A stretch of DNA of 20,919 nt from Intoshia linei. Lineage: Eukaryota; Orthonectida; Rhopaluridae. The stretch covers positions 1-20,919 of the forward strand of contig LWCA01000664.1 in the NCBI GenBank assembly GCA_001642005.1, read 5' to 3'. The notes under the pieces are model-generated. The model worked only from the letters and a program-made list of their open reading frames with translations, did no database searches and had not been told where the DNA came from. The position numbers and the translations under genes are program-made. Shown here one piece after another: positions 1-20,366 of this stretch; within the stretch, counting starts at the first letter, position 1, and the number at the start of each line of letters is the position of its first letter.

Positions 1-520
1 CAGCGTATATATTTTTTTAAATTCTCAAACTCGTTTGATTTTCAAAAAGAGGGACAACTGCGGTTTTTGACCCGTAAAATGTGAGTTTGGGAGGTTGAAA
101 TTTAGTTTGCGAACACCCCGGAAACACTGTAATTGAAATGTGAACTTTATAAAATTATAAGACGGGTAGTTATTTAAATAAAGCTGAACACACACACACA
201 AATAAAAATATTAGGTCGTTTCATAAGTAATGTTTTTTCAACAAAATTACAAAGTTTATTTGATTACATTAAAAATAAAGTTATATTATAAAATATTCAC
301 CATATTAATCCATAGAATATATATTTTTAAATTCTCCAACTCGTTTGATTTTCAAAAAAAAGGACAATTATGCTTTTTGACCCTTAAGATGTGAGTTTGG
401 GAGGTTGAAATTTGTTTTGCTAACACCCCGAAAAAAACTGTAATTGAAATGTGGACTTTATAAAATTCTAAGAGTGGCAGTTATTGAAATAAACGGGAAC
501 ACACTCACATGCAAACAAAC
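1..520. repeat. Two diverged copies of a direct repeat, about 200 bp each
   Basis: Copy A covers about 1-203 (cut by the window edge) and copy B about 310-520. Both contain, in the same order, TCGTTTGATTTTCAAAAA, then TTTTTGACCC, then GTGAGTTTGGGAGGTTGAAA, then AACACCCCG, then CTGTAATTGAAATGTG, and both end in an AC-rich tract. The unit of about 310 bp includes a roughly 100-bp spacer that is not repeated. No ORF is visible. It could be a satellite-like pair or two insertions of one dispersed element; the second copy has drifted by substitutions and a few one-base gaps. Confidence 0.8.
211..232 (+). mobile_element. Possible mariner-type terminal sequence
   Basis: A TA dinucleotide (209-210) is followed by TTAGGTCGTTTCATAAGTAA, which resembles the TTAGGTTGG...AAGTAATG terminus typical of mariner elements. 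I did not find the opposite inverted end or any transposase nearby. It sits between the two copies of the direct repeat, so it may be a solo remnant or a chance match. Confidence 0.3.
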
Positions 521-657
521 AAAAATTTCGTAGCATAATATGTAAGGATTTTTAGTTTCATCAATTCAAAAATTTAAATTTACACAAGCAAAAATAAAAA
601 TTGTGACGTGATGTCGCGTGTGACAAAATTTGTTATGAAAAAAAGAATAAACATTAC

Positions 658-1243
658 TTTGACAAAATTGCACTGGCTTTATCTCCAATACACACAATTT
701 TTACATTCATATTCTTATCCAACCTTTCATTAACGGCTTTAACAATAGGTTTTACAATGCTAGAATGGACAGATCCACAAAGTCCTCGATCGGAGGTAAC
801 TGCGATAATTAATTGGTTAGGATCCTCTGATTTTGATTTTACTTCACATTTATCATAAAATTCTAAATTGGATTAAAATGTAGTTTATTTTTATACCCTA
901 ATATAAATACCGTGACTCATACATTTGGAATTTTTTTTAATTTTTTAACTAAATTTTAATTCTTAAAACATCAATTCCGATAACTAGGATTGGAAAATGT
1001 TTCATTATTGAAACATCTAACTAACATCTCACAGGAAATTTTGAAAATAAAAATAAAATGTATTTTGTATTAAATGTATTATATAATATAATATATATTG
1101 TATAGTTGTACCTAAAGCTCCTATCCCATAAGGTCTGACATGCTTCAATTTTCGCTCAGCTTGGGTATATTTTGCAGCTGAAACCATTTTCATAGATTTG
1201 GTAATTTTTTCAATGTTTCTGATAGCCTTCAAACGCATTGAAA
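658..1243 (-). CDS. ATPsyngamma: ATP synthase subunit gamma, mitochondrial (partial, two exons)
   Basis: Central rotating shaft of the F1 part of mitochondrial ATP synthase, in the matrix. Two minus-strand exons are visible: 1112-1243 and 658-862, joined by a 249-nt intron with GT..AG ends. The first begins after ATTAG and encodes [20 protein letters not shown], then [20 protein letters not shown], the hallmark N-terminal helix of the family. The second encodes [20 protein letters not shown] and later [11 protein letters not shown], also diagnostic. Phases agree: the first exon leaves G, the second supplies AA, giving Glu. The next donor is GTAATG just below 658. The remaining exons (about half of the protein) must lie beyond the left edge. 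The exon with the start codon and mitochondrial presequence should lie at higher coordinates than 1243; I could not identify it. An ATG at 1262 in the same frame is intronic and not the real start. No break is seen in the visible part. Confidence 0.95.
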
Positions 1244-2317
1244 CTAATTTAATTAAATACAATTAGATGCAGTAAATCAAATTACATAAAACTTCAACAT
1301 AAAAAGTGTGCTAAAATACAAAATATCTTTCAGTTACTGGAAATATTAAAAACAATAATAAATAATTTTTCTTAATGTCCCAAATTGGGACTTTCAATCA
1401 ACGATTTTACATAATTTTAGCAAAAAACAAACATTTCGGCATAACATCCTACATGAATTTACAGAATCTTACAATATTTCATACTAGCTATTAATATTTA
1501 GTAAATATTGTATACGTTTCAAGAAATTCACTTAGATTAAATTTCCACAATGCATGGTGTTTAGTGATTCCTGATCTATGTAGTAGAATAAAGATAAACT
1601 TGTATTGTTGTGTTGGTCTTAAGTTTATACGGTAAGTCCTACAATTTTTAAAAGTTGACAAGCCCAAATTAATGATATAAGGTCATTTCATAAAATATAA
1701 AAAGATTAAGAGCAAAAATTTACTATGTTTGAGAGTGGCCATGGATCGGCTTTGAACTAAAATGCATCTAAATTGCAATTAAATAAATACAATTGGATAG
1801 ATTATACGGTACAATATTCAACATTATATAAATTAAAGAATTTTATTTCTATATTTGATTCTTTAGTAACAAAATATTTGTACGTTTTTTATTCATTTTA
1901 TTTTATTTTTATTCTAATCCTCAATCTTAACAAACTACCAATTATTGTAACATTGAAACTTTTTGGAAACTAATACTGATACGTATTTTTGATAGGTGTC
2001 ATTAAATAGTTTTTGTTTAACCCACGTGTTTATGGAACAAGGCGTATATTATATGTAATCTGGTGGTAAATTTACTTAATTTAAAATATAAATGTCTAAG
2101 AAGAGGGATATCAAGGCAAGCACCGTATGTTTGCTTGTGATACGGCTGTAGTCTGAATGTGATCAAAGTATATATGAAAGTAAAACTAATTAGTAATTAT
2201 ATTAATTAGTATGTATTATGTTAAACGTATCAACGAGCGATATTGAAATATTCAAATTAGAATAAAAATATTGCATAGATACAAAATTGTCGAAATTGTT
2301 GATCAAATATAAATACA
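1244..2317. other. Spacer between the gamma-subunit gene and TRMT61A
   Basis: AT-rich DNA between two divergently transcribed genes, so it should hold both promoters and the missing first exon of the gamma subunit on the minus strand. A 66-codon plus-strand ORF at 1773-1973 is composed almost entirely of AT-rich codons and has no recognisable motif; I do not call it a gene. A short ORF at 2092-2148 starts MSKKRDIKAST and meets a donor-like GTATGT at 2125. It could be a small first exon, but I cannot join it to anything. Nothing else is supported. Confidence 0.5.
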
Positions 2318-5062
2318 ATGATGGAGAAAAAAATTAAAGACGGTGATATTGTAGTTATATTTTTTGATTACAAAAATATATACAGAAAAAATTTGGATCC
2401 TATAAGAATTGACACAAAATATGGAGCTATATTAAAAAGTGATTTAATTGGTAAAATGTACGGTTCAATAGGAAAAACAAACACCAACATAAAATATTAT
2501 ATACTGGAAATCACACCAGAAATTTATACACGTATTGGGCCAAATATGACACGTTATTTGTATACAAATGATATTTCGCAAATTGTGTATAATTTATCCT
2601 TGAAGCCAGGGTCCAGTGTAATTGAAACTGGAACAGGTAGTGCAAAATTATCTTTTTCAATTTTAAAGAGTATCTTGCCAACCGGAAAATTGTTTTCTTT
2701 TGATATTGACGATATGCGAATTTTACAAGCCAAAAAAGATATGAATTTATTGATTAATGACTGCATTGATGAAAATTTTATCTGTGAAACTAAAGATTTT
2801 ACTAAAGATGAATTTGAAAATTATTCTTGTGTTGATGCACTTTTTCTTGATTTACCTTCTCCTTGGCTTGCTATGAAGAATGTTGTAAAGTTACTCAATA
2901 TTGGTAATATTAAAATCTTATATTCTGGTTCTAGGTTTTTTAAGTTTAATGTATTAGTTTTGGTTAGGTTTTTGTAAGTTAGTTTGGACGGAAAGATCGA
3001 GATTCTACTACCACAAAACCTTGTGAATTATTTTATTTGGTCATTTGTTTCATGTTTTCTAGGGATTGTAATTTTAAAAATTTAACAAATTAAAAAATGT
3101 ACATTTAGATGGTAGATTTGCATCTTTCTCTCCATGTATAGAACAAATTCAGAAAACTGTTTTGACAATGAAGCGAAATTTTGACCAAGTAGAGGTAATA
3201 TTTATTTTTGTTGATTTATATTTTATATTTTGACTTTGTGAAACTTGTATAACTCAAAAAGAATACTGATTTCTGTTTTTGTCTTTATTAATTATAAAAA
3301 CATATCTAAAATGGTCGGTCCGAAAGACAATGGATTACTAACTTCGGGCGTGCCAAACCGTTGTTTGGACCGTGCTTCACAACTATAATAAATACACTGA
3401 TGGACCAGTAGGTCGTAATCATAACCGAACCTATACAGCACTAGGCTATCTGAAAAATAAACTCTTATAATAAAATTTTCACAAAAGAAGTGTATTGTCA
3501 TTCATAATTTATAACCGCTAGCCACTTCTCTAATGCGCTCGAGTTGACATTTTAAATTTAACACAAAAAATAGTTATGATATTCTAGAACAGGGGTGCAC
3601 AACCTGCGGTCGTGAAAGCATTTATGTGTGGCCGTGGGCAATCCATGTCATCAAAATACAATATATCATTTTACTTCAAATTCAAGCAAAATATTTTTAT
3701 CAAAATGTTACATTTTTGACTTTGGCCATTTTCTCAAAATGGATTTAAACTTTCACAATGTCAAATTAAATTTTGTACGGACATAGTATCAATGAGTAAA
3801 GTAGCTTTGCTGGTGAATTGATATAAGGTTGTGCACCCCTATTCTAGAATATAATTTGGAAAATAAGGCCCTCATTTTACAACACTTTCGTCTAGACCAG
3901 TGTTTCCCACCCTTTTAAGTTTTATGCTCCACTTTTATCATTACAAAATTTCTACGCCCCATCATAATTTGTAACAAATATTTCCATAGTAGTGTCATAA
4001 CAGATTTTTTTATGCATATATATTACGGCGCAACAAAATGGGGTAAAACGTTAAATTAAAATTTAATTGATTAATTAATGTGATTTTTGAGTTTAGTGTT
4101 TTTTGCAAAGATTTTCTATTTGAACCACCATTTTTGTAATCTTTAAACGCAGGACTCCTCTTTTGATTATGTCCAACTTTTTTCTTTTCTTTATCAATAG
4201 ATCACTAACTGCACTGAAGCCACATTCTTCTAAGTATGAAGAAGGAAAAGGTAACATAACTCATGTTTCTAATAAGGATAATTCTAATCATAACAAGGAA
4301 TGTTTCTATCTCATCACAAAGCCATGAAATAACTCCTTTTATGTTGAACATTGATTTCATTGACTCATCGTTTTGCATTTTTGAGATTTTTTCTTGATAT
4401 TGCGTCGAGATATCACATAGATTCACTAGCATTGGATGCATCGTTCATACTGGAAATTTAATGTTTTTTAAATCAGAAGCTAATAATTTTAAATTATCAA
4501 CTATTATAAGTACATCAGCATCAGTTACCTCACACCTCTTTAACCAATAAAACAAATAAACCAGTTTTCTATGGGAAGCCGAATGAATTTGTTCGCAAAA
4601 AATATGAGAATTTATTAATGATTAGATTATCTTGATTTCTTGACAAATTTTGACAAGCCCCACTGGTGGGGCATACCCCACGTTGGAAATAACTGGTCTA
4701 GACCGTCTATACCCCACAGAAAGGATCTCGGTACGGTAGGTTCGGGACTGGTTCTAATCACCAAAAATTTTGATTATTTTTTTTCCGTATAACTACAAAA
4801 TATGCAGAGTAAAATTAAATTATTAGTAAACGTGGTAAAATATTTAATTATGATATAATTTTTTCAATAGGTCTACGAGTTTGTTAAAAACCATTATGGT
4901 TTTAGAAAATTTGATTATTCTGAAATAATAAATAAGGACGAATATACAAATGGAAATTTGATAAAAACCGAAAAACAAAATACAATTATTAATTTCGGAG
5001 CACCTATAGGCCATACTGGATATTTGCTATTTGCTTCACTCACAAACAAATTAAATTTATAA
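2318..5062 (+). CDS. TRMT61A: tRNA (adenine(58)-N(1))-methyltransferase catalytic subunit
   Basis: S-adenosylmethionine-dependent enzyme that, with its partner TRMT6, makes 1-methyladenosine at position 58 in the T-loop of tRNAs. Three exons: 2318-2903, 3109-3194 and 4871-5062 (stop TAA 5060-5062). All introns are GT..AG and phases fit: exon 1 leaves G, exon 2 supplies AT. The product is 287 residues, close to the human 289. Visible signatures: ETGTGSAKLS at residues 103-112 (SAM-binding motif I; the family usually has GTGSG), DALFLDLPSPW at 173-183, FASFSPCIEQIQKT across exon 2, and the C-terminal GHTGYLLFAS. The start at 2318 gives MMEKKIKDGD, matching the family N-terminus; the Met at 2321 could also be used. 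The second intron (3195-4870) is long because two hAT elements landed in it. Reading exon 1 past its donor to a stop at 2975-2977 gives a false C-terminus. Confidence 0.96.
3590..3841. mobile_element. Non-autonomous hAT element (MITE), 252 bp
   Basis: Terminal inverted repeats CAGGGGTGCACAACCT on the left and, read on the other strand, TAGGGGTGCACAACCT on the right. A perfect 8-bp target duplication TTCTAGAA flanks it at 3582-3589 and 3842-3849. This end sequence and 8-bp duplication are typical of the hAT superfamily. There is no coding sequence inside. It lies in the second intron of TRMT61A, so it is removed by splicing. Confidence 0.9.
3898..4695. mobile_element. hAT element with decayed transposase, 798 bp
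   Basis: A perfect 8-bp target duplication GTCTAGAC lies at 3890-3897 and 4696-4703. The left end starts CAGTGTTTCCCACCC; the right end read in reverse starts CAGTTATTTCCAAC, an imperfect inverted repeat. Inside is a minus-strand relic of a hAT transposase C-terminus. It is a second, independent insertion in the same TRMT61A intron, only 48 bp from the first element. Confidence 0.88.
4138..4441 (-). pseudogene. hAT transposase relic (C-terminal dimerisation region), frameshifted
   Basis: On the minus strand, 4138-4251 reads PFPSSYLEECGFSAV followed by SDLLIKKRKKLDIIKRG. This is the C-terminal dimerisation block of hAT transposases of the ZBED/FAM200 type, where Y-L-x-E-x-G-F-S-A is the conserved core. 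The adjoining minus-strand ORF 4205-4441 (start MHPMLVNLCDIS) is in another frame over the shared part. The coding region therefore carries at least one frameshift near 4250 and is dead. It lies inside the hAT element at 3898-4695, antisense to the host gene. Confidence 0.75.
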
Positions 5063-5091
5063 CATTGTAATTGTAAATTTTGTAAATTGTA

Positions 5092-5097
5092 ATTAAA
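5092..5097 (+). terminator. Candidate poly(A) signal of TRMT61A
   Basis: ATTAAA, the commonest variant of the animal polyadenylation signal, lies 30 nt after the TRMT61A stop codon. No canonical AATAAA is nearer. Its use is inferred from position only. Confidence 0.45.
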
Positions 5098-5446
5098 ATG
5101 TAACGTTTTCCCTTATCTGGTGTATTAAGATCATAATATGCATGTACAAATGCTAAAATAATGGACCAAAAGTAATCGCATTCTATTTCTCTACTTCAAT
5201 GTCCACCTGTTTTGATACTGTCATTTTTGTCCACCCAATTTTTTGTATAACTTTTTGATGTGAGTAGTCTTCTCACATCTGATCTCAAAAATTAAGATGA
5301 AATAATTCACTTTAAAGTAAAAAGTAATGTGATATGATGGTTCCACCTGAAACAAAATTTGGGACCACTCTTTTAAATGATTGATAATAGTGAATGGTAG
5401 GATTTTGTAAGTTAGATTTTCAACGTGAATTTATTTTTTTGGTAGA

Positions 5447-5737
5447 ATGAAAATGTCCCTCAGCAGAGCTAGGCCCTGTTTGTACGTAGTACATAACAGT
5501 CAACCTAGTAATTATATATTCTGTTTTGCAAAATTGTTGAGACTTTCATATTTTCTAAAATATGAAAAAATGAAGCATCTACGAATAAATTCGATTAATT
5601 TTTCTAAATTTTTTTTCAATGACGGGTCTTGCGAATCTCATATATATTTTATTTTATCATATAAAAAATTCAGAAATTTAAATGTTGATTTAGACAACAT
5701 AATAGCAATTGCAAAATTGCTGGGAGGAGGTATATAA
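5447..5737 (+). CDS. Unassigned ORF, 96 codons
   Basis: ORF starting MKMSLSRARPCLYVV and ending DNIIAIAKLLGGGI. I do not recognise the product. It is less AT-biased than the spacer, has a mixed residue composition with three Cys before residue 40 (C11, C26 and one later Cys in NDGSCES), and no obvious signal peptide or repeat. The last codons overlap a donor-like GTATAT at 5732, so the ORF could be an exon whose continuation I cannot find. A possible acceptor (TTTGGTAG) lies just before its ATG. It stands between TRMT61A and the DHHC gene on the same strand. It could equally be a chance ORF or a decayed transposon fragment. Confidence 0.3.
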   Translation: MKMSLSRARPCLYVVHNSQPSNYIFCFAKLLRLSYFLKYEKMKHLRINSINFSKFFFNDGSCESHIYFILSYKKFRNLNVDLDNIIAIAKLLGGGI

Positions 5738-6302
5738 TAAATGTAAATTTGAAAATCGATAGTTACACAAATTATTAATGTGTTATATATGAACAATGTT
5801 TATTAAACATGTCATGATTTCAGAACTGAAATAATATTGATATTCAAGAATAAAAATTTTTTAATACTCAATTTGGAAAATGATCATACCATTTAAAAAA
5901 AATTTATCAAAGCATTATCTCCTCAAAAATGAGTCTTAGCTAGTGTAGGTTTAACACTGCTTTCAGTCATCTCACTAAATGGTTACACAAAGTGTCAAAC
6001 ACATTTTTAGCAACTTTTAGTTTTTAACAATGCGTATGGTAACATTTGAAATTTGTTACAATGTCTATATTTTGCAACTATTGCATATTATGAAGTATAT
6101 TAATTAGAAACATAACATTGCTCGGTCCCAAAGTGATCACTATAAACGGCTTCTACTGAATATACTACTTAGATTTATTTTTTGTATTTTTAACATTTTC
6201 GTAACATTTATGATTTTGAATTGTTGATTTTCGTATATAGAAACGTATGTGTAAACAAATATTTCGGCTTTCATTATAAAATTATTTAAACTTCATTTTA
6301 AT
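5738..6302. other. Spacer upstream of the DHHC gene, no gene seen
   Basis: AT-rich DNA with many stops in all frames. It should include the promoter of the downstream palmitoyltransferase gene, but no distinct TATA box or initiator stands out from the AT background. Confidence 0.5.
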
Positions 6303-8460
6303 ATGCGGCTAATGAGGAGTGGGTCAATTTGCTTCTTCTCATTAATATCTTTATGGATATTTGGATTTGTTATTATCAATAGAATCTTTTCCATCAAATA
6401 TATTAACCAAATTCAATTTTCCTTTATTGGTAAATTTTAATATATTTTTTAATAAATATGTAAATACACAAATCGCACCTCATTTTATCTACCTATAAAA
6501 TTAATTTATTTTTAATATATAATATAAAATAAGTTTGTTTCCATCATTATTTCATTAATGATATACATTAATTTACAGGAACCATCCAAATATTCATAAT
6601 AATTATGTTAAACCTGGATAAAATTTTTAATTTATACGGTTGATATATGACCGGAAACACTAAATATATATTTATGTTAATATAAAATTTGAAACATTAA
6701 GATTGGTAAAAACAATATTAAAATATTAAATTTACACATAAATACATTTGTGCACATAGAGGTACCCTCACTTACGAAGCCCATGAAATATCCGCTCAAA
6801 CTGAAGTAATTCTGTATTTTCATAAATACTACAGAATAGGGATGGAGCCAATTTTGTATATATAAAAATATTTTAAATGTAACTAAAAATCGCGAAAATT
6901 TCTTTACACTCAGTTACATTAGCATCTAATCATTAGATTGTTAATTTAAAAGGAATAAATCAAAAAATTCTTAAAACCACTAAAGGAGGGTTACAGATAT
7001 AATTTTTTATTTATTACATTTTAAATTTACATTTAGGTTTCAATGTTTTCTACATACTAATGATTATTAGCTATCTTAGAGTGTCGTTTTCCTCTCCTGG
7101 ATATTTCTACAGTATTTCATTTTTTGTTTTATTTCTTTACATTGTATATACAGATTTTACTCCATTTGAAAGAGAAAACCAACAAGCCATAGCAATACGT
7201 ACATTCTGTAAGAAATGTAAACATCTTAGACCAGCCAGGTCTCATCATTGTGCAGTTTGCAATAAATGCGTAAGGAAAATGGATCATCATTGTCCTTTGT
7301 AACATTTTTACATGCATTCTTACTTATTTTTAAAATAATTACAGTAATTGTAAGTGAATAAATATATTTTAGCATCAACAATTGTGTTGGAGAAGAAAAC
7401 TTTAAATTTTTTGTTTTGTTGCTGTTATATTGCTTTTTATCTGCTCTTTTTTCAATGTACATTCATATTTCCTATTATACAGGATACTATCCTGAAGTTG
7501 AGGTATATTTTTACGTATAAATTGTGTATTTTTATTTTTAGGAGAATCCAATTTATAACCAATCAATCATAATCAAATTTACATTTTTTGTCACCATTAT
7601 TTTCTTCCTTTTTGATACATGCATATTACTGGTTGCACATTTAAATATCCTATTAGTAAGTATTTTATACATATTATAAATTTTCTCAAATTGTGTAAAA
7701 TATAAGATACAATTGTTTTGTTTTTAAATATGATCTTTTTAACTCTACAATTTCATCTGAAAAAAATATTTCTTGCAATTTTTTTAATAGTCATAAATAA
7801 AACGTACAAAATAGAATAATTTTATTCCCTTACACTTTTAGAATATTTTAAAGGCATAGTGAAATCGTTGAGGAAAACTGTGTTTTCTAATTTTAGACCC
7901 AGATACATGCATTATAATGATAATTATAATGGAAATACATAACATTTTTTTATATTATTATTCTATAACTTCTTCATTTATATAGAATAGAACAACTTTA
8001 GAATGGTATGATATTAGAAAAGAAGAGCAAAGTGGAAAGATATTTATCAATTACCTTAGGTTAGCCGTCTTATCAAACATTAAAATTAATTTTTATTTTA
8101 CGTTAACGTTAAATAATTTGAAGTTTCCATATACCGTATCTAATCATATTTTCATCACTTTTGAATGTAATTTGAACCATATTTAAAACAAATAATTGGA
8201 TATTAGTACGAAATTTTTTTTCATGATAAAATGTAATTTTCTACACTGTACTAAATAACCGTATGATGGAAAACCCTATTTACATTGTATCGAAAATGAT
8301 AATTATTATAAAATTACAATTAATATTTAGAAATGCAAGATCACAAGATTATCCAAACAATTTACGTGTTATATGTGAATCAGATAACTTGTGTTTATCA
8401 CTGTGGCCTCTGAGACAACAAATTTTGTTTAGGGAAACTGAAAATTTGTTACCTTTGTAA
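6303..8460 (+). CDS. DHHC-type palmitoyltransferase (ZDHHC family)
   Basis: Membrane enzyme that transfers palmitate from palmitoyl-CoA to cysteines of proteins, typically in Golgi or ER membranes. Six exons: 6303-6429, 7037-7298, 7373-7502, 7542-7655, 7986-8059, 8331-8460 (stop TAA 8458-8460). All junctions are GT..AG and in phase; the product is 278 residues. Exon 1 gives membrane segment one (about residues 10-28), exon 2 segment two (about 65-80) and the zinc-binding cysteine-rich domain [20 protein letters not shown] ending in catalytic D-H-H-C at 125-128. Exons 3 and 4 give segments three and four. Exon 5 starts NRTTLE, the TTxE motif (214-217). Oddities: the usual W after DHHCP is F here (codon split TT|C across intron 2), no DPG motif is seen, and intron 3 is only 39 nt and has an in-frame stop, so it must be spliced. 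The subfamily is not clear. Confidence 0.93.
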
Positions 8461-8469
8461 AAAAATATA

Positions 8470-8475
8470 AATAAA
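8470..8475 (+). terminator. Poly(A) signal of the DHHC gene
   Basis: Canonical AATAAA, 10 nt after the stop codon at 8458-8460, implying a very short 3' UTR. Confidence 0.7.
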
Positions 8476-8914
8476 CTTTTCCAAGTCTACAATAGAATTG
8501 AATTACAATATACATTATACAGTACAATTTTTCCTTAAAAAATTTTTTAAAATAATGCATCAAATAATATGGTATGAATTAGAATTTACATTTTGATACA
8601 TTGATGATATTGGTGTATTTTAAAAAAATGGTTGTATTGGTGTTTGGATATTTTTCGAGACCATTCATTCTAAAACCTCAATGTTTCTCCAGAAATGTAA
8701 AAATTTACAATTTTAATTGATGAGACTAATATACAATTATATCAATAACTTACATTGACGATGAAGGTGATTCACACTTGGTGATACATAATCTTAATTT
8801 TTGCGAAACTTTTTATTTTGATGACCACTAATATGCAGGCCATGGTATTGGAAGACTGGTATCATCCTACATTACATTTACGTTGTTGGTATTGGTAATT
8901 CAAATATTTGAATA

Positions 8915-8948
8915 GATAAATAAAAAAGGTCGCTCTCATACATCATAA
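8915..8948 (+). promoter_or_regulatory. Candidate core promoter of the microexon gene
   Basis: GATAAATAAAAAAGG (8915-8929) is TATA-like and is followed about 20 nt later by CTCATACATC, a plausible start region. This would leave a 5' UTR of about 40 nt before the ATG at 8988. The background is so AT-rich that this is position-based inference. An acceptor-like TTTACAATTAG at 8970-8980 leaves open a spliced 5' UTR. Confidence 0.3.
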
Positions 8949-8987
8949 ATACATTTCTCAACTTTTAAATTTACAATTAGAATCAAA

Positions 8988-9066
8988 ATGAAATCAGTTA
9001 CATTTTTCAGTGGATTATTATTTGTTTTTATACAATTGATATCATACAATTACATTGAAGCTAAAA
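8988..9066 (+). CDS. Signal-peptide exon of a secreted microexon peptide gene
   Basis: Encodes 26 residues, MKSVTFFSGLLFVF followed by IQLISYNYIEAK, plus one extra nucleotide (A). Lys2, a hydrophobic core from about residue 4 to 18, polar residues and a small residue at the end (IEA) make a textbook secretion signal with cleavage predicted after Ala25. The exon ends at AAAA|GTAAAA, so it is left in phase 1, and nearly nothing of the mature peptide is encoded here. The next acceptor, TTTATTTTAG, ends at 9108 and gives a 42-nt intron; the DHHC gene next door has a 39-nt one, so this is feasible. If unspliced, the frame stays open to TAA at 9129-9131 and gives a 47-residue peptide, the main alternative. 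The product is not recognised. The downstream triplets are described in their own entries. Confidence 0.6.
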
Positions 9067-9108
9067 GTAAAACATTTCATACATTTTTTTTTATAAATTT
9101 TATTTTAG

Positions 9109-12100
9109 CTGGTAAATTTAAAATTAACTAATTATGAAATATATTTATTTAAATTGTTTACAGATATATTCATTTTTTTACTCAAATTACTCTATTCCAT
9201 TAATTTAAAATTTTACCATGATCAATGATCGTACGTGAAACTATTTGTTGTGTAAATGAGGATTTTGCAAAATTTTTCGTGATGGGTCAAACTAACATTA
9301 TTCAAACTCTCATCCTTACTTATATAATATGCTACGCAATATTTTTGTGTGTGTGTGTGTTCCACTTTAGTAATTTATAAATGTTTCATTTTAATATTCA
9401 GTAATTGTTTATAGTCTAAATCAGTGGTTCCCAAAGTGGGCAATTAATTCAGTTAGGGGGCGTTTTGAAAAATAATGCATTAATGAGAAACAAATTTTTG
9501 GATTAATTTTTTTTATTAAATCCTCAAATCCCCATTCATTATAGATCAATTTCAAAAGTCAGGGTCTTACAAATTTAATGAATCGCGTATAAACTTTAAA
9601 ATTTAAAAAAAAAAATTTTAATTTTTTATAAAATTGATTAATCTTATTTTCACTGCTAATTAGTTCTATTAACTAAATTCACAACAGTAGCCAAATACAA
9701 ATATAATAAAAATTCTTGTGAACAAGATATTGTATTTAAAATATCATAATTGTTAGAAAAACCACCAAGAAACCCTCTATTTTATAAATTCTGTTTTTTA
9801 TGAATTTTTGGGTAAAATAGGGTTATATTGAGAAGGATTTCTGATAAACTGTTATAACCATGGCATTATATATACTCAAAAATTTTACATATACTATTTA
9901 TACGCATGAATTCACAACGTTACCACACCAATATTGTTTTATAAAGTTCATGTTAGTTTTTGCAAAATTGTATTAAAAATTAGTTAAAAATGCAAAAAGT
10001 CAATATTTTTTTTGAGAGTTAGACAATTTCAAGCACCTCATCTTGTTCACAATAACAAGTTTCATTTTTCCCCGTTGGATACTTTTGCATTGTATAAAAA
10101 AAGTGTTTTAGGACACACCTTAATATATATAGAACATGTAACATGTATTAAATTTATATTAGTTAATTATCATTATTAATTATTATAGTGTGTAATTAAT
10201 ATTTATTCATCACAATATGGTGTTACAGTGTCCAGTTTCATTATCACGAATTAAAAATTTATGAAAAGTTTCTAAAAACCTTATTATTCACCTTAATACA
10301 CCATTTTCAAAAGTGAAACTATTTTAATTTAAAGTATATGCTATATAACAGTGATGGCAAATATATGACACGCCCAGGGATTCTGCTTAACACGTTGGTA
10401 AAAAGATAATTTGAAATTTTTAATATGATGTGGAAAAATTAACTCAAAAGTGTGCAATAATAGAAAAGTGTACATACCTAAAATTATTTATTATTTAAAA
10501 GTGACACCCAACAAAAAAGAAAATAACAAAAAAAATTTTTTTGACTCAACAACTGAAAAGTCTTGTCATCACTGCTATATAACATCAAATTTCAATCGAT
10601 TTTGAAATTGATGCAATTTTTTATGCATTTATAACAGGGTCAGCAACCAGTGGCTCACAGAATAATTTTGGTAACCCTTTGATTAAGCATTTAAATTATT
10701 TATTTTTAAATTTTTCAACGTTTAAACACCGATTTAAACATTTTTATAATATAATTATAATTGGCTCATTATACATTGTATAAATATTTTGTTAAATATA
10801 CTAGAACAATTTCTCTTCTGTTAAAATTGAATTGTATAATGTGTAAATTTTCTAAAGCGGGGCTCGTAGAATTTTTTGATATATAAAAGTGGCACACGAA
10901 ATGCAAAACGTTGCCGACCCCTAATGTATAATATATTTATTTTGAACCATATTAATATAAAGCTTGTAAATTTTAATTTTTTAAGAATGTACAAATTTTT
11001 TTTTAAATGTATTTGAATATCTATTATTTAAAATATTATTTTAGTGAGTATAATTATAATTATTTTATATACCGTGTTAAAATTTTAATTAATTTTATTT
11101 TAATTATACTTATATATTTAATTTATAATTAGTTCCCCGTAATAATCATACCATTATATAATAAATATAATGTATTAATATTATTGATGATATACATTAA
11201 AATACATGTCTATAAGAATAATTTTATAGTTGTTCTTATGGATAGAGTCGAACATTAGTTTAGTGCATAATGAAAATGTAAGTAACATTAAAAAATTTAG
11301 TAAACTATGGAAACATTGAAAAGTGTTTTTATAGAAAGTGTTCTCATAGACAGAGTTTACTGTATTACATTTAAGTGTAAGCATTACTTTGTTAAAAATA
11401 ATATATTATTTTAGCTGGTAAGTATTATTGGTATAATTAATTTTGAAAATTGTACTTTAATTCAATAAAAATTATTTACTTTTTTTATGTTTTGTGAATA
11501 ATATCATATTCCTTTGATAGCAAGTAAAAATATAATATATAAATCGTTATAAACTTAAAATTAAAATATATACAACATATACAGTCAAATCTCTCAATAG
11601 CGCCATTTCGGTTTTTTGATATGTGTTTATTAATGGGGGTATTCGGTGTAACGAATAGATCACGAATACGGTTACTATGTATTAATAAGCATATATATAA
11701 TAAAATAATGATAAAATGAAGTTCATTCATCCAACACGCGTTTTTTAATGTATTTGTTTGTAAATTTAATTAAAATTTGATAAAATATAATTAAAATTAG
11801 ATTAATAATTTCTATATTAACTGTTTATATTAATATATTTATGATTTTAAATTAAAAATTTACTCATTTTAATTAAATTTTTTTTAAACTATTTTAAAAT
11901 TGAAGCGATATTGAGAAATTTTCTTATATGTTTATTATAAAATTTAAATATAGTGGCGGTATTGAGAGGTCTGACTGTAATTAAAAATAATGTATATATT
12001 AATTTTTTCTAAATAATATATTTCAATGTAACCCTTAAACTCTATATCAGTGGTAGCGAAAATAGTATTTGCGTGTTGAAACATTATTTGATTAAACTGT

Positions 12101-12887
12101 TTTTAACTCACATCAAATAAAAAATGATTTTATTTTAAACTATGAAATTAGAATTTAAGTAAACATACATAATCATTTGAATATATTCAGATTAAAATTT
12201 TATTTAACTTTAAAAAATAATAGATTTTTTAATAATGCTACGTTTCGTAAAAAGTTCGACAGAGGTTATTACTAATACATTATTTAGGTAATTATATATA
12301 ATGTAATATATGTAGTATAATGTTTTGATTGATAAAACATTAAATATTTTATAATATTAATACACTATATCACAGCATTATGTAAATATTATATTTATTA
12401 AATAATTAAGCCTAAAAATGTGGCAGATCGATCCTATGGTGTATATCTTAAAAAAATTCAACTCTACATACATAATCTAATAAATTAATGATAATTATCA
12501 TTATTAATATAAAAATGATATTATATTATATAAAAACTTACAAAACTTTATTTTTTTATTTTGCATTGATATTTATTTATCATATTATTTACATGTTAGT
12601 TATATATTTTTTATAATAAATAAATTGCAAATTTATTACAATTATTTTTTTTATTTGTGTTTAGTCGGTAATTTTAAAATTTTTATTAACAACGTTTAAA
12701 AATCATACCTGTGAACTGTGTTCACCGAACACGAATCTTGCCAAATTTTAATTCAAAAAAATATAATATATTTTATAATTACAAAATTCAGAATCATAAT
12801 AAATAATTTAATTATTTTTAGATAGTAATTAGTTTTTTTTAATTCTTTCAAAAATGTTTTCAAAAATTTAATTCACTTTCATAGAAT
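9109..12887 (+). CDS. Sparse 5' part of a 3-nt microexon array
   Basis: Each entry is a splice acceptor ending in TAG, three nucleotides, then a GTAA donor: CTG 9109-9111, TGT 10189-10191, CTG 11415-11417 (donor GTAAGT), TCG 12665-12667, ATA 12822-12824, AAT 12885-12887. Weaker candidates are TGA 11045-11047 (donor GTAT) and a 6-nt TTCCCC 11133-11138 (donor GTAATA). With the phase-1 carry from the signal-peptide exon the six strong triplets read T-V-S-V-D-K without a stop; including the weaker two also gives no stop. Introns here are long because transposons have landed in them. That these are real exons is inferred from the splice-site pattern, the exact spacing and the frame; no transcript evidence is available. 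Individual members, especially 10189, may be chance matches. Confidence 0.5.
9422..9465 (+). mobile_element. Left end of a hAT-type element (fragment)
   Basis: CAGTGGTTCCCAAAGTGGGC, followed shortly by TTAGGGGGCGTTTTG, is a well-known kind of hAT terminus. I searched up to 10348 for the reverse end (GGGAACCACTG) and found none. The element is truncated, or its right end has decayed. It lies in an intron of the microexon gene. Confidence 0.6.
10349..10574. mobile_element. Non-autonomous hAT element (MITE), 226 bp
   Basis: Ends CAGTGATGGCAA and, on the other strand, CAGTGATGACAA. A perfect 8-bp target duplication CTATATAA lies at 10341-10348 and 10575-10582. There is no coding content. It sits in an intron of the microexon gene. 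Confidence 0.88.
10635..10923. mobile_element. Non-autonomous hAT element (MITE), 289 bp
   Basis: Left end CAGGGTCAGCAACC; right end in reverse TAGGGGTCGGCAACG. Target duplication ATTTATAA (10627-10634) against ATGTATAA (10924-10931), one mismatch, so somewhat old. No coding content. Confidence 0.8.
11199..11362. mobile_element. Possible old pogo/Tigger-like MITE
   Basis: The right end, read in reverse from 11362, is CAGTAAACTCTGTCTATGAG, flanked by TA. The left end is degraded: ATGTCTATAAGAATAATTTT at about 11205 aligns with the interior of the right arm, but the first ten bases are not clear. The open frame on the minus strand here (11181-11384) is a by-product. It lies between two triplets of the microexon array. 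Confidence 0.35.
11582..11977. mobile_element. pogo/Tigger-like MITE, 396 bp
   Basis: Inverted ends CAGTCAAATCTCTCAATA and, reversed from the right, CAGTCAGACCTCTCAATA (16 of 18 identical). TA dinucleotides flank both sides (11580-11581 and 11978-11979), the target used by Tc1/mariner/pogo transposons. There is no transposase. It enlarges the intron between CTG 11415 and TCG 12665. Confidence 0.85.
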
Positions 12888-13027
12888 GTAATGAAAATAG
12901 TCAAATTTAACTTTATATTACAGAGTGTTCAATGAACTTCAGTGTTCAGTGTTCATTTTATGACTATACCTTTGATAAAATTAGTAAACTTAAGTAATAA
13001 TCATTACCAATAACTACTTAATAAATT

Positions 13028-13216
13028 TTAAAATAAAAATAAATAAAAATTATCGAATTTACGGACTAAATTAAGAACCGCACATTTAGTAGGAAGCCTA
13101 TCAATTCCAAATTTATTTATAAAATTTTCGCGTACAATTATATTAAATTTTCCATATTTAATCATCTCTTGAACTAGGAATAATCTTTCATCTATCAAAA
13201 TTATAATATCAATCAA
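13028..13216 (-). pseudogene. Helix-turn-helix transposase relic (DUF4817-like)
   Basis: A 62-codon minus-strand ORF with ERLFLVQEMIKYGKFN, then VRENFINKFGIDRLP and TKCAVLNLVRKFDN. The layout (E-x3-V...Y-x-x-x...VRx-F-x-x-K-F...P-x-x-x-x-I/L-x-x-LVxKF) matches the N-terminal DNA-binding helix-turn-helix found in insect transposon proteins of the DUF4817 type. No catalytic domain follows, so it is a fragment. It lies inside an intron of the microexon gene in the antisense direction. Recognition is by residue pattern only. Confidence 0.5.
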
Positions 13217-13462
13217 ATTTAGTTTCAGAAAGTTTACATACAGATTGTTTTGAACTTTATTATGACTATAATTTTTCTATATGAATATGCACTGAAAGTA
13301 TAGCTTTAAAATAAATACCCTGTAGTAATAACATTGTACTACAAATGTATACATTCAAATTAATATCTATAAAACGGTAGTACGTAAATCAAAAAAAATA
13401 AAATATCAATTATTTTATTATATAAATTTAAATTTATTAATGTATAAATCATTTTTAATTAG

Positions 13463-15591
13463 CTCGTAAAACATTAAAAACGTGCATTATAAAGAAATAT
13501 AATTATTAATTAATGAAACAGAATACTTTATCAATTTTTTATATTTTATTAACTAATTATTTTATCAGAAATATACCATTAATTAAGTATTACCAAATAT
13601 GCTGCAAGTTAGAAATTTTATGATAAAATTTTAAATAAAATTAAAAAAATATTACCTGTATATTAAATTAGAAATATTGCGCCAAAAATTTGTTGAGTTA
13701 ATAACATGAATTGATAATTACAATTCAATAATACAAAGTGCAACAAAAAGTTCCAAATGTTTTAATTGATATCTAATTAATAGACAAGATCCATATAAAT
13801 ATTTGAAATGTAAATTAAATTCACTTTACAAATCCATATTAATAAAAAAAATTTATTAAAAAAGTGAATAAAGAATATAATGATAAATTTTGATTTTGAT
13901 TTGACATTTATGGCGCAAATTTACAACAGGCAATATGTTATCTTTTTTAATGTGACAAATTTTTATTTTCAATCAATTTTTTACATCAACAATTAATTGT
14001 ACGGATTATGGTAATTATTTTTTTCTGAGTGATTTTAATAATTATATCAATAAATTAAACAAATTAATTTGATTAAATAGTCATTAATTGTGTCTTGAAT
14101 TTCTAATATTACTTAATTTTTCTTAAATTGACTTTTACAAAATTGTAATAATATAGTGTTTAGATCCAATTATATAATTATACACATTATATTCAGTTTG
14201 TAATTTATTATTACTTTATCATTATCAATCAGAGGTAGCAATCCATTCATCTTTTTTAATAGTCTTAGAAAATATACAGGGGATAAGAAAATGATATATT
14301 TTTATGTGGTTGGCTAAAATCTGAGGAAATTTTAATTTATTTATATATTTACAATTGATTAATAAATTTATATTAAAATAAAAACAGATCGTTAGTTTTA
14401 TATTTATCATTTATATTTATCAATTATATATTTTTCTCAATAATGATTAAATTCATTAGCCGATAAAAATTATTTCATTATATTTATAGAGTGTAATATT
14501 TTTATGATTCTTGAAATCCAAATTTTTTAAATTTAAATAATATGCGTTGATTTTAATTAATATAAAAATTTTGTTAATAAAAATAATTATTAAATTCAGT
14601 CGGTAATTATAGTTTATATACAATTTATATCTGTAACATGTACTTAGTTTCAATTTTTATATAATTATACACTATTAAATTAATAGCACGTAAATAATAA
14701 TTATTGTAATAAAAAACATTTAAAAAAAAATGTATTAATATATTTATATCATTGTTATTACCTTTATAATTAACATCATTAGGAGGTAAATTATAGAAAC
14801 AAGCAATGATCTCTAAAAATGAAATATATTTAAATATTTAAATCATAATATCTATACTTTCATTAGCATGTAAATTATATATAAAAATTAAATTAAATCG
14901 ATTAAATTTAATTTCAATGTTTTATATTACAGCTTGTATATTTATTATTTATTAATGAGACTATTTATAATAATTTTTTTTTGATTTCATAAATATTTTA
15001 TTATGCTGCATAGATTGTAAATTTACAATACATTTAATTGACTAATTGATACTATTAATTTATTGTTTTTAGATGGTTTGGAAAATTTTATATGATAAAG
15101 TGAAAAATTTTTGAATTTTTATTATTTTCAGTTTGTAATTTTTTAAGTAGTTACAAATCACTAAATTATATTCGAAATTGTTAATTTTATAAAAAATCTA
15201 TACTTATTATATACTTGATATATTTTCATAGATAGTAATTATAAAATAACGTGATAAGTGTATTTAAATTATATATATATATTTTTGATTATAGACGGCA
15301 ATTTTGCTAAACTTTTTAGAATTTTGTTAAAATAACTTTGAAGTTATAATTTTTATTAAATTTTAAATTAAAATAACATTTAGATGGTAATAGAAAATTA
15401 ATTTATTATAAACCCATTTTAACATACGACAATTTATTTTTCGATTAATTTAAACTTATATGTTTTCAGTAAAAATTTCAAATTTATTCATATAATATTC
15501 AAACTAATTTTATAGAATGTAAGATTTATAATTTTATTAATTTTTGTTCATATAAAAAAATGCTTATTATTTTTTTTAATTTCAGCAAAAA
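13463..15591 (+). CDS. Dense part of the 3-nt microexon array
   Basis: Triplets between AG and GT, by first base: CTC 13463, TTT 14197, ATC 14388 (donor GTTAGT), AGT 14490, TCG 14600, CAC 14687, GAG 14783, CAT 14867, CTT 14933 (GTATAT), ATT 15014, ATG 15073 (GTTTGG), TTT 15132, ATA 15232, ACG 15295 (GC donor, GCAATT), ATG 15384, AAT 15516 (GTAAGA), then a 6-nt CAAAAA 15586-15591. From 14197 the implied introns are 56-188 nt. Acceptors vary (TTCAG, TATAG, CATAG, TTTAG, ATTAG) and the introns do not align with each other, so this is not a tandem repeat. Carrying on in phase 1 from the upstream triplets the frame reads S-L-Y-Q-F-A-R-A-S-Y-Y-V-Y-N-D-E-S-K with no stop. The open frame depends on including ATC 14388; without it TTT then AGT makes TAG. 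Confidence 0.6.
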
Positions 15592-15782
15592 GTAAATTTT
15601 TAAGAATTTAAATATCTTTTTGAATGATGGTATCATCCCATCAATTGCATTAATTCGGTTTGAACACTTTTCTATGCATGGGCACATCACAAATTTTTAA
15701 TTTAAGATACAAAATGATTTAATTAAGTGTAAATCAGGAGTAAAAGAAAATTATGGATAAAATAAATATAAATTAATCATAG

Positions 15783-15985
15783 GATGTAAATGTTTTTATC
15801 AATACATTATCATGTATGTCGATTTGATGGGTTGTAAAAATGATATTTATTTTCAACTAATTATGTTAGATTGTAAATTTTATATTACATTTGTATTGTT
15901 TTTAGTATTATTAAAATCAATATATATTTTAAATGGGATTTTGTTCACCATTCTTAAAAATAATAATAACAAAGAAAAGATTTAA
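15783..15985 (+). CDS. Candidate 3' end of the microexon gene
   Basis: Two more triplets fit the pattern: GAT 15783-15785 (CATAG, GTAAAT) and ATT 15870-15872 (TTAG, GTAAAT). After TGTTTTTAG at 15905 the carried T continues TTA TTA AAA TCA and stays open to TAA at 15983-15985, giving LLLKSIYILNGILFTILK, then a run of Asn and KEKI. This could be the terminal exon. If ATT is used, the last intron is only 33 nt, shorter than any other here, so it may be skipped. The alternative is that CAAAAA at 15586 begins the last exon, read on as S-K-S-K-F-L-R-I-stop (TAA at 15608-15610). I cannot decide between them. Confidence 0.35.
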
Positions 15986-16008
15986 AATGTTCGGAAAGAG
16001 GGATCTAG

Positions 16009-16014
16009 AATAAA
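16009..16014 (+). terminator. Candidate poly(A) signal of the microexon gene
   Basis: AATAAA 24 nt after the candidate stop at 15983-15985, followed by a GU-rich stretch (TGTTGTAAATGTGCATG, 16022-16038). Another AATAAA at 15761-15766 would serve the shorter version that ends at 15610. Confidence 0.35.
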
Positions 16015-17155
16015 AAATATATGTTGTAAATGTGCATGTTTTTTTTGGCTAAAATATTATTGTTTATTTTAATTTTCTAACATGTTTAGTAAGTAATACT
16101 ATAATGCCAAAAACAAAAAGTTTATTATACATTTATATATAATATTTATTATTACAAATATTTAACAATTATTATTATGCATTATATGTATATTTGGTTT
16201 AATATTAATTATATTAATCTAAATATTAATTTTTTGAATTCTGATTTTATTAATCAAATATTCTCAAAAATTAAGTATTCCAATAATTTTAGTGAGTAAA
16301 ATATTATAATAATAATAATATGTATATTAGGCTGTGCAATTAAAATTATTTTGATAATTTTCGAGGACGATTAGTTCACAATCTGTTCATTTATGTAATA
16401 TTTAGATTAGTTCGAAATAAAAATATTTAAAAATAGTCTACCCACTCGAATCGGCATTTTTGTTAAGATCCCATTGTAGATTATGTTATTTTACAGAAAA
16501 ATACACCAGATGTGCACTAATCGACCTTGATTCTTGAATAAGTGTGAACCCTAATGATTTGAGCCTAATGTACAATGTACATATAAATATTTGAAAAAAT
16601 TTTGTAATTTTATTGAATTTTTAATACAATTGTAAATGTGAAAATGTATAGCAAGTAATTTTTTTCTAATATGAACAATACCATTTTGATATTTGTGTAT
16701 GTATAATATACATTCTATATTTATGACGACAACGGTATTGCTGATGCTATTATATGATTATTACCAATCCATATTATTTCGAATGTCTGAATTGCTTCAG
16801 CTATACTTGGTGTGTCTTAATTAGTTTATACAGGGGTCCCAAATTCACCTTATCAACTGCTATATATAGATTTTATAAAAATTACTAAGTGATTACTGAG
16901 TTCTCGGTTTTAGTATTTTTGACTTTATTTATTTTATTTTGACCGAGTTCTTATATTTTTTTATTGATTTTAAAATTCATCTCTTCCTTTCATAAATAAT
17001 TTTGATAATCATTAATATAGCATTTTTTATGGGCGTTGAACTTCAAAGTTTGAATTATGATATTTTTGATACATTATTACCTAACAGGTTCTTATTTTGG
17101 GCCATCCCCAATCGTAGTACATACTTTTTACTGAAGCTATAATAGGTGTGAAATT

Positions 17156-17827
17156 GTGTGTTCAATTTTTGTAAAAAGTAATGAGTTTTAAAACTCAATA
17201 CTTTTTAGAATAAACATATTTTAAAAATTATTAATTTTGTTAATCAGATTGGTTTTTCAATCAAAGCATTAAAAAATTGCATTAAATAAATAATTAAATT
17301 ATCAATACTTTCAACTAGTACATCAGATGAAATATTATTTTCTGCGACGGGGTTATCCACGTCTATTGGTAAAACTAGGATTACGCCAGAAATAATTGAA
17401 ACTGATTTTTAAAATACAATAAAAACTTGATGTCCACAAAAACTAATTTATAAACAATTTTTTGTTAATAACAAATTTAACTATCTACTACTTTATACTA
17501 GTTTATATATGATACTACTTTCTTATAAATTTCGGATATTATTATCCTCTAAATATCAGTTATTTATTTATTGTATATAATTTATTTTTTATTGCCATCG
17601 AAAATCAGCAAGATTAATTGTATGTTTTGAATTTTTTACGTTTTGTGAACCAAAATTGAAAACTCATCAAATTGTTTTTAAGTATTTTTATTAAATTTTG
17701 AAAAAACGTACTTACTGAGTTTTTAAAAAAAAAATTGTTTTACTGAGTTTTACTATACTGGATTTTTATTTTGTAAAAAAAAGTACTTAGTGCTTACTGA
17801 TTTCCTAAAAAACTAAGTTGAACACAC
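17156..17827. repeat. Region bounded by a 10-bp inverted repeat
   Basis: GTGTGTTCAA at 17156-17165 and its exact complement TTGAACACAC at 17818-17827. The interior repeats ACTTACTGAGTTTT-like words. No target duplication is clear, so a 672-bp MITE is possible but unproved. Confidence 0.3.
17173..17206. repeat. Near-perfect 34-bp palindrome
   Basis: Two 17-base arms, AAAAAGTAATGAGTTTT and AAAACTCAATACTTTTT, pair with one mismatch and no loop. It lies just inside the left inverted repeat at 17156. Confidence 0.7.
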
Positions 17828-19465: not shown

Positions 19466-19726
19466 ATGAATCAATCAATTGATATAGATATGACCAATAC
19501 AACTGAACATTGTTCCAATTGCGCGAAAAAGACAAAGAATAACGATGAATTCAAGAAAAATAATAGAGAAAGTAGCGTTATCGGGTGTATAACTCATAAA
19601 AATGAAGTTATAAATACATTTGGTAACGAGATAATGATATTAAGTACTAGCAGTAACTTCAATAGTGTACTACTAGAAACTTATATATCAAACATTATAT
19701 TTCATGTAAAAAATGAATTAACATAA
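19466..19726 (+). CDS. Unassigned ORF in the candidate transposon, 86 codons
   Basis: Starts MNQSIDIDMTNTTEHCSNCA and ends IIFHVKNELT. It is hydrophilic, rich in Asn, Ser, Thr and Lys, with one C-x-x-C pair near residue 16-19 and no membrane segment. Base composition is less AT-biased than the surroundings. It begins 34 bp inside the left inverted repeat, so it is likely the N-terminal part of the transposon protein or a separate small transposon ORF. The frame ends before the downstream transposase-like ORF. A 6-nt exon-like AGTGAA with donor GTGAGT follows at 19741-19746, so splicing between the two is conceivable. Confidence 0.45.
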   Translation: MNQSIDIDMTNTTEHCSNCAKKTKNNDEFKKNNRESSVIGCITHKNEVINTFGNEIMILSTSSNFNSVLLETYISNIIFHVKNELT

Positions 19727-19811
19727 TATATTTATTCCAGAGTGAAGTGAGTTTAACATTAGTTACTCTAAAGTTACTATATCGTTACTGAGAAAGGAAA
19801 AAAAATTATAG

Positions 19812-20366
19812 AAGGAGGTATATAAAACACAATATACAAAAACACATCTTTTTGCTTTGTGTACCGACAATGGAGATAAAGGGGAAAATGCTGTTAGAAC
19901 ATATTTAAATCAAATTTTTGATATGTATAAAATAAAAAACAAAACTGTAATCGTATGGTCTGATGGACCATACGGTGAATTTAAAAATAAATATCTTGTA
20001 CAGACATTAAAAATTTTGGAAATTAAATATTTGTGCAAGATTCATTGGAGATTTTTTGCAACAAGCCATGGAAAAAGTGTTGTTGATGGGATTGGGGGGC
20101 GAGTGAAGCATATGGTGCAAAAATCAGTAATGTCCAAAAGACATGATGCCCCTATTGTCAATAATGCAATAACATTTGTTAGTACGGCTCAGAGGTTATG
20201 TCAAAACACCTTCATTAAAAAATGTCGTGGAGTTAAAAAGTACAAATGGAACAAAACAAAATTTGCTGGCATTGGAAAATGCCATAATATTGAAATAGAT
20301 AAAAATCTTCTAATACTAAGAGAACACACTAGAGACCATCCTTTTATTACATATCTAATATTATAA
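19812..20366 (+). CDS. Transposase-like protein, C-terminal part (SDG / HGK / DGIGG type)
   Basis: Open from just after TTATAG at 19811 to TAA at 20364-20366, 184 codons without an ATG at the start. The first in-frame TTG at 19857 is not a credible start, because conserved-looking residues (THLFALCTDNGDKGENA) run through it. Key features: VIVWSDGPYGEFKNKY, then HWRFFATSHGKSVVDGIGG, the signature of a widespread family of transposon-derived proteins in insects and cnidarians with an RNase H-like fold. The Asp of SDG and the Asp of VDG are candidate catalytic residues. Family members are usually several times longer, so this is a spliced terminal exon or a truncated copy. No internal stop or frameshift is present. 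The superfamily is not identified. Confidence 0.7.
   Translation, partial: KEVYKTQYTKTHLFALCTDNGDKGENAVRTYLNQIFDMYKIKNKTVIVWSDGPYGEFKNKYLVQTLKILEIKYLCKIHWRFFATSHGKSVVDGIGGRVKHMVQKSVMSKRHDAPIVNNAITFVSTAQRLCQNTFIKKCRGVKKYKWNKTKFAGIGKCHNIEIDKNLLILREHTRDHPFITYLIL

Follow-up and report, generated by a model that had tools for sequence, protein, structure and literature searches.

The predicted gene in contig C347

The subject of this analysis is contig C347 (GenBank LWCA01000664.1) of the orthonectid Intoshia linei. The contig is 20,919 nucleotides (nt) long, was read whole and is referred to below as the window, while the genome searched for comparison comprises 34.65 Mb on 1,319 contigs. A predicted gene on the plus strand of the window begins with an exon coding for a signal peptide and continues with an array of exons, nearly all of which would be exactly 3 nt long. 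Judging from the DNA, the architecture is genuine, highly unusual for a gene, and present on many contigs of this genome.

The array is recognized by the strict site YAG-NNN-GTAA, in which k, the number of nt between YAG and GTAA, equals 3. A broad set of sites adds GTAT donors and AAG acceptors. The gene model was assembled by hand from the DNA and has 29 exons. The signal-peptide exon comes first and the terminal exon last, and the 27 internal exons between them are small and symmetric, 26 of them predicted at 3 nt and the remaining one at 6 nt. The 28 introns of the model are 33–1223 nt long with a median of 89.5 nt, and three early introns are longer than 1 kb. Five of the exons (14388, 14933, 15073, 15295, and 15586) are outside the strict set, and those at 14933, 15073, and 15295 match the local regular spacing of 56–97 nt. 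The reading frame stays open to a TAA stop, and AATAAA is found 24 nt 3' of it. The signal peptide on the first exon is clear, as judged by hydrophobicity only, and points to a secreted product. The predicted features are:

8988–9066 (+), first coding exon (79 nt) with the ATG and the signal peptide, Kyte–Doolittle hydrophobic core; ends in phase 1 at the donor GTAAAA
9109–9111 (+), 3-nt exon CTG, strict
10189–10191 (+), 3-nt exon TGT, strict
11415–11417 (+), 3-nt exon CTG, strict
11521–11523 (+), 3-nt exon CAA, strict
12665–12667 (+), 3-nt exon TCG, strict
12822–12824 (+), 3-nt exon ATA, strict
12885–12887 (+), 3-nt exon AAT, strict
13381–13383 (+), 3-nt exon TAC, strict
13463–13465 (+), 3-nt exon CTC, strict
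14197–14199 (+), 3-nt exon TTT, strict
14388–14390 (+), putative 3-nt exon ATC, weak donor GTTAGT; including it removes a stop
14490–14492 (+), 3-nt exon AGT, strict
14600–14602 (+), 3-nt exon TCG, strict
14687–14689 (+), 3-nt exon CAC, strict
14783–14785 (+), 3-nt exon GAG, strict
14867–14869 (+), 3-nt exon CAT, strict
14933–14935 (+), 3-nt exon CTT, donor GTATAT; the arrays show a k = 3 excess of GTAT donors
15014–15016 (+), 3-nt exon ATT, strict
15073–15075 (+), tentative 3-nt exon ATG, donor GTTTGG, regular spacing
15132–15134 (+), 3-nt exon TTT, strict
15232–15234 (+), 3-nt exon ATA, strict
15295–15297 (+), tentative 3-nt exon ACG, GC donor, regular spacing
15384–15386 (+), 3-nt exon ATG, strict
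15516–15518 (+), 3-nt exon AAT, strict
15586–15591 (+), putative 6-nt exon CAAAAA, donor GTAAAT; including it removes a stop
15783–15785 (+), 3-nt exon GAT, strict
15870–15872 (+), 3-nt exon ATT, strict
15906–15985 (+), coding portion of the terminal exon, with acceptor TTTTTAG and the stop TAA in frame at 15983–15985
16009–16014 (+), poly(A) signal AATAAA, 24 nt downstream of the stop

Between 9067 and 16660, the plus strand of the window holds 25 strict sites, while every other spacing from k = 0 to k = 60 gives 0–4 sites in the same region. Dinucleotide-preserving shuffles of the array region (n = 1000) contain a mean of 0.795 and a maximum of 5 strict sites. Outside the array, strict sites are found just at 3412, to its left, and at 18835, to its right, and on its minus strand the window contains a single one. 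An earlier, sequence-only reading of the window had reported 23 strict copies and essentially none to the left of them. The array it described is borne out with a slightly higher count, the single site at 3412 agrees with the near-absence on the left, and the spacing counts and shuffles strongly favor k = 3, as it had anticipated. The additional sites with weaker donors that it had named are present at 14388 (GTTA), 14933 (GTAT), 15073 (GTTT), and 15295 (GC), and so are the signal-peptide exon at 8988–9066 and the first intron of 42 nt. Also, none of the 30 pairs of sites with the strongest alignments falls inside the window, which agrees with its statement that the introns differ from one another. 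The same reading had extended the array to 16654. Sites are indeed present that far, but those at 16090, 16293, and 16652 come after both the poly(A) signal and the stop of the model and therefore probably lie outside the predicted gene. These three strict sites of the segment 16087–16654 enclose TAA (16090), TGA (16293), and CAA (16652), and may be due to chance or form part of another gene.

Recurrence of the arrays in the genome

The same kind of array is found on 11 further contigs besides the window. Eleven contigs were sampled, whole or in part (C347, C615, C559, C329, C897, C443, C488, C171, C527, C351, and C205), and parts of C872 (5 kb) and C896 (2.5 kb) were added later. The array regions of the eleven contigs (117,724 nt) contain 311 strict sites at k = 3, compared with a mean of 13.1 and a maximum of 24 over k = 7–40, and 5 on the reverse strand. 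GTAT donors at k = 3 number 52 where 13.5 are expected (39 above expectation), and AAG acceptors add another 19 above expectation. The excess at k = 6 is small (27 vs ~13), which leaves k = 3 as nearly the sole excess. A chance origin is rejected on the spacing counts and shuffles for the window and on the spacing counts for the eleven contigs.

Because the eleven contigs were picked for their k = 3 pairs, the excess inside them is partly the result of selection. The genome-wide counts of pairs with other gaps, as well as the translation tests described below, escape this selection. Genome-wide, 129 pairs of sites with a gap of 3 lie 45–75 nt apart (97 forward and 32 reverse), and the corresponding numbers for gaps of 4, 6, and 9 are 30, 31, and 30. 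Gap 3 is thus about fourfold above the others and the sole outlier of the four, so that among the tested gaps the excess of pairs is confined to k = 3. A control with the backward pattern gives 54, 109, 63, and 83 pairs for gaps of 3, 4, 6, and 9. The other gap lengths are the better control since the backward pattern is a different word with its own background. For pairs 70–100 nt apart, where k = 3 was the one gap length tried, there are 144 against 54 in the backward control. Mixed pairs, in which a 3-nt site is followed by a 6-nt site within 45–75 nt, are no more frequent genome-wide than in the backward control (46 in both). Triples of k = 3 sites occur 16 times in the genome and 0 times with the backward pattern, and are located on C171, C329, C347, C488, C527, C615, C881, C897, and C1046. 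On C1046 (26578–40575), two triple matches lie 14 kb apart, suggesting another long array.

The strength of the arrays is uneven, with 59 strict sites on C615, 13 on C205, and 9 on C443. The C615 array (387–17721, loci L025/L026) packs its 59 sites into 17 kb; it is the longest array sampled and the best suited for a transcript test. C872 has 20 sites at k = 3 and 0–3 at every other k below 40, and the 2.5-kb piece of C896 has 4 sites at k = 3. Array introns in the counted range of 30–130 nt number 182, and in the introns no strong strand-specific motif that could aid these exons was found.

Two duplications show how arrays can grow. At 7912–8358 of C559 (locus L027), a tandem unit of 218 nt, 99.6% identical, consists of an intron and a 3-nt exon CGA, and this duplication marks a recent stage in the growth of the array. 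In C897, a tandem unit of 155 nt that holds a site of the broad pattern is duplicated at 94.8% identity. As these are the only two clear unit duplications, tandem repeats are rejected as a general explanation of the arrays. Identical triplets occur side by side no more often than expected (10 vs 9.4, standard deviation 2.9), which argues against an origin by 3-nt target-site duplications. The array contigs do share interspersed repeats, and 53 of the 60 strongest matches (of 327) have no 3-nt site in either copy.

Stop codons and reading phase of the triplets

Since the signal-peptide exon ends in phase 1, each codon of the spliced product would straddle a junction, taking its first base from the end of one triplet and its other two from the start of the following one. 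Phase-1 codons built in this way from the strict set of the eleven contigs include 9 stops in 303, compared with 19.2 expected from exon-order shuffles, while the two other frames have 25 stops in 303 and 21 in 314. At the junctions between neighbors of the strict set there are 9 stops in 299 where 19.3 are expected, and a fraction of 0.002 of 2000 order shuffles is as low. The deficit is larger in the broad set, which has 9 stops at 395 phase-1 junctions against 24.5 expected. Splitting the arrays at gaps above 2.5 kb reduces the junctions to 389, with 9 stops against 24.6 expected (standard deviation 3.7), and 0 of 2000 order shuffles are as low.

The avoidance of stops is specific to neighbors. 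When the exon order of the broad set is reversed, 27 stops appear, and neighbors less than 150 nt apart give just 2 stops in 211. Exons two apart show no clear deficit (19/376 vs 23.7 expected), those three apart show a weak one (16/363 vs 23.0, P 0.035), and at distances of four to eight exons there is again no clear deficit. This pattern is hard to explain unless neighboring triplets are joined in forward order and translated, and its restriction to neighbors suggests that the exons are normally all included. Seven of the 9 residual stops have another candidate site, of very mixed donor quality, between the two triplets, and one of the remaining two, which is in the window, has a 6-nt site in between. 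The strict sets of C615 (58 codons), C559 (33), and C329 (25) are free of stops in phase 1 and have 1–5 in each other phase; for the 59 triplets of C615, the other phases contain 4 and 5.

The base composition of the triplets is coding-like. Using two exons of the methyltransferase gene of the window contig, a single gene, as the yardstick, phase 1 has a lead of 44 log units over the second-best phase for the 307 triplets outside the window, and 0 of 1000 permutations equal this value. The triplets of the window prefer phase 1 by 3.3 log units, and 9 of 12 contigs favor it. Their GC content is 0.301, compared with 0.264 in control triplets, only a slight rise of 0.037 with a standard error of 0.019.

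Several results weigh against this interpretation of the arrays, beginning with the phase of the window gene. Its strict triplets alone have 2 stops in 21 phase-1 codons and 0 in 22 in phase 0. Both stops vanish only when the exons at 14388 and 15586 are added, a choice made post hoc, and sites of similar strength were omitted by hand, including 10963 (AAG acceptor) and 11045 (GTAT donor). The phase is the weakest point for the window gene, resting partly on hand-chosen exons. On other contigs, the broad set of C615 (73 triplets) has 2 stops in phase 1 against 5 and 7 elsewhere, the stop test of C872 is empty owing to its composition, and among the 6 broad junctions of the C896 piece there is 1 stop where 0.43 are expected. 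Phase 1 is not favored by composition in C443 (−0.7) and C351 (−0.1), which are both undecided, or in C488, which favors phase 0 by about 5 log units (5.0–5.1). The preference of C488 implies that the intron phase may differ between genes. Its array (2871–9444, L035) fits phase 0 and is near open reading frames (ORFs) at 2871 and 6671 that resemble signal peptides, and may comprise two genes or a gene in another phase.

An automatic search for signal-peptide exons over the arrays was uninformative, showing no preference for phase 1 (16, 12, and 11 for phases 1, 0, and 2, compared with 17, 13, and 10 antisense). Counted singly over the whole genome, YAG-NNN-GTAA sites (7314) are no more frequent than sites with gap 4 (7326), and therefore the class is visible only as clusters. 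A protein search with an earlier 75-residue version of the window peptide found no homologue, with no candidate among targets of 0.55–1.75 times the query length sharing three 5-residue words, and a Pfam search gave nothing over the cut-off. Since the protein search returned no candidate of similar length, the window gene seems to be unannotated.

Proposed splicing model, alternatives and known systems

Based on these observations, we consider it highly probable that the arrays are genes made of single-codon exons, which would be spliced in order by intron definition and encode small secreted orphan proteins. The median intron of Intoshia linei has been reported to be 57 bp (PMC6543705). Elsewhere on the window contig, four donors and three acceptors of other genes look ordinary by eye and belong to the same classes (GTAA/GTAT and TTTAG). 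With short introns and ordinary sites, splicing probably pairs the sites across mostly short introns. The acceptor and donor of a 3-nt exon leave no room for both to be engaged simultaneously, and for this reason the two introns flanking each exon would be removed successively and not together. Each splice would place the next donor against the growing exon, in a manner similar to recursive splicing except that one codon is left each time. The outcome for the window gene would be a protein of ~80 residues including the signal peptide, with a mature part built largely one residue per splice. With every exon of the model included, the spliced coding sequence is predicted to measure 243 nt, or 80 codons and a stop. 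We infer the splicing itself, the order of removal, secretion, constitutive inclusion of the exons, and a role at the boundary between parasite and host.

The sequence-only reading had proposed one gene whose secreted peptide is spelled out mostly one residue per exon. Stop avoidance, composition, and recurrence on other contigs support a gene of this kind, with the correction that in phase 1 a triplet is not itself a codon; each exon would add one residue net while its bases are shared between two codons. That reading had also presented the array as a strong challenge to exon-definition models. The challenge stands in part and is smaller than claimed, because orthonectid introns are short and intron definition explains much of it.

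Exons of one codon or less have been described as single cases in ordinary genes, and such a size is reported to make it harder for the spliceosome to recognize them. If the model is correct, whole genes are assembled chiefly from the smallest useful exon, and a class of secreted proteins is absent from the annotation of Intoshia linei and perhaps from that of other genomes. The arrays would then provide a natural test, in a very reduced animal, of the successive use of splice sites a few bases apart, and also of a fixed order of intron removal and of fidelity over 28 consecutive splices for a product of 80 residues. It would remain a puzzle that a compact parasite genome keeps 7–17 kb of DNA for a small protein. 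The use of exactly 3 nt, and not 6 or 9, calls for a testable mechanistic or historical reason. One such reason, which is possible if rather doubtful, is that 3 nt is a privileged exon length and that a specialized form of splicing treats acceptor-NNN-donor as a unit, advancing along the transcript and adding a codon at every step. In its favor, exons of 6 and 9 nt would be equally safe for the frame and show no such clustering.

The triplets may also be real but optional exons, with the array acting as a generator of a very large number of protein variants at the host boundary. This variant of the single-codon model is compatible with it, and we regard it as unlikely. Exons of 3 nt are symmetric, so any skipping would be safe for the frame; weak donors of the sort seen in optional exons occur (GTTA, GTTT, and GC); and the stops between exons two and three apart are slightly under expectation. 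On the other hand, the strong deficit at immediate neighbors, with none at distances of four to eight, is what would be expected if most exons are normally included.

It is less probable still, and in our view improbable, that the arrays are decayed genes which were formerly spliced and are now silent. The weak donors, the few residual stops, and the lack of a protein candidate sharing three words with the window peptide would fit such relics. However, given the nearly complete avoidance of stops between close neighbors and the long series of intact splice sites, any decay must still be slight.

The layout of the sites resembles the zero-nucleotide ratchet points described in Drosophila, and three early window introns are above 1 kb; the sites might thus be such points in long introns of a simpler gene, in which case the 3 nt would be spliced out again and never translated. 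This is very improbable, since ratchet points need k = 0, at which the arrays hold 15 sites against a background of ~13; also, the 182 introns of 30–130 nt are too short to need them, and stop avoidance and coding-like composition require translation. Least credible is an element of the DNA or RNA that has nothing to do with splicing and resembles adjoining splice sites by accident, for instance a protein-binding site or a piece of some repeat family. It would suit the exact fixed spacing, the interspersed repeats of the array regions, and array flanks richer in AT words than the rest of these contigs, but not the general lack of 3-nt sites in the strongest repeat matches, a position table of 305 sites without sharp preference beyond the motif, or a stop avoidance that depends on exon order.

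Among known systems, the sequence-only reading had pointed to aphid bicycle genes and to the micro-exon genes (MEGs) of schistosomes as relatives in style. The likeness in style stands, while the link to bicycle genes is an analogy only, the animal being an orthonectid. The MEGs of Schistosoma mansoni are described as having exons of 6–81 bp in the body of the report (3–81 in its abstract), mostly of 15 bp, with 10 to 20 per gene (PMC10526429). According to the same source, they are, as predicted for the arrays, parasite genes for secreted proteins with many small exons, mostly multiples of three in MEGs, and are hard to annotate. The size spread of MEG exons is absent here, where the internal exons are nearly all of 3 nt, with up to 59 strict sites per contig, and where pairs at gaps of 6 or 9 nt are no commoner than at 4 nt. 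The organization is therefore similar to that of MEGs in style, yet a new and extreme variant, and we claim neither membership nor a relation in sequence. MEGs are expressed in host-facing glands or stages.

Bicycle genes are reported to have ~17 exons on average, and the megacycle gene more than 100 (PMC9168663). As described there, they share with the arrays many tiny internal exons starting at codon position 2, with introns in phase 1, a feature that is predicted here with C488 as an exception and C443 and C351 undecided. Bicycle genes belong to aphids, which are insects, and not to Orthonectida, and membership is not claimed in this case either. They also carry CYC motifs, while cysteine makes up 0.5% of the concatenated residues of the arrays, a comparison of composition only. 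The exons of bicycle genes are longer and varied in size.

Isolated microexons of 3 nt or 1 nt have been described in Drosophila TnT and homothorax, mouse Ncam, and Arabidopsis APC11, and show that one codon or less can likewise be spliced. They are single exons in ordinary genes, whereas here they would make up nearly a whole gene and a genome-wide class. Ratchet-point recursive splicing has been described with an acceptor directly before a donor and stepwise removal, as proposed for the arrays. Ratchet points retain nothing and serve long introns, while in the arrays 3 nt would be kept at each step and translated. In a limited literature search, which did not extend to the 2016 genome paper, no report of microexons in Intoshia and no account of arrays of consecutive 3-nt microexons were found.

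The window contig also contains other features. An ORF at 2303–2977 includes a 193-residue piece identical to Intoshia linei A3Q56_04852, which has a tRNA methyltransferase domain. Exons at 7003–7600 resemble, by their motif, a DHHC palmitoyltransferase. At 19466–20366, ORFs give the impression of descent from a mobile element.

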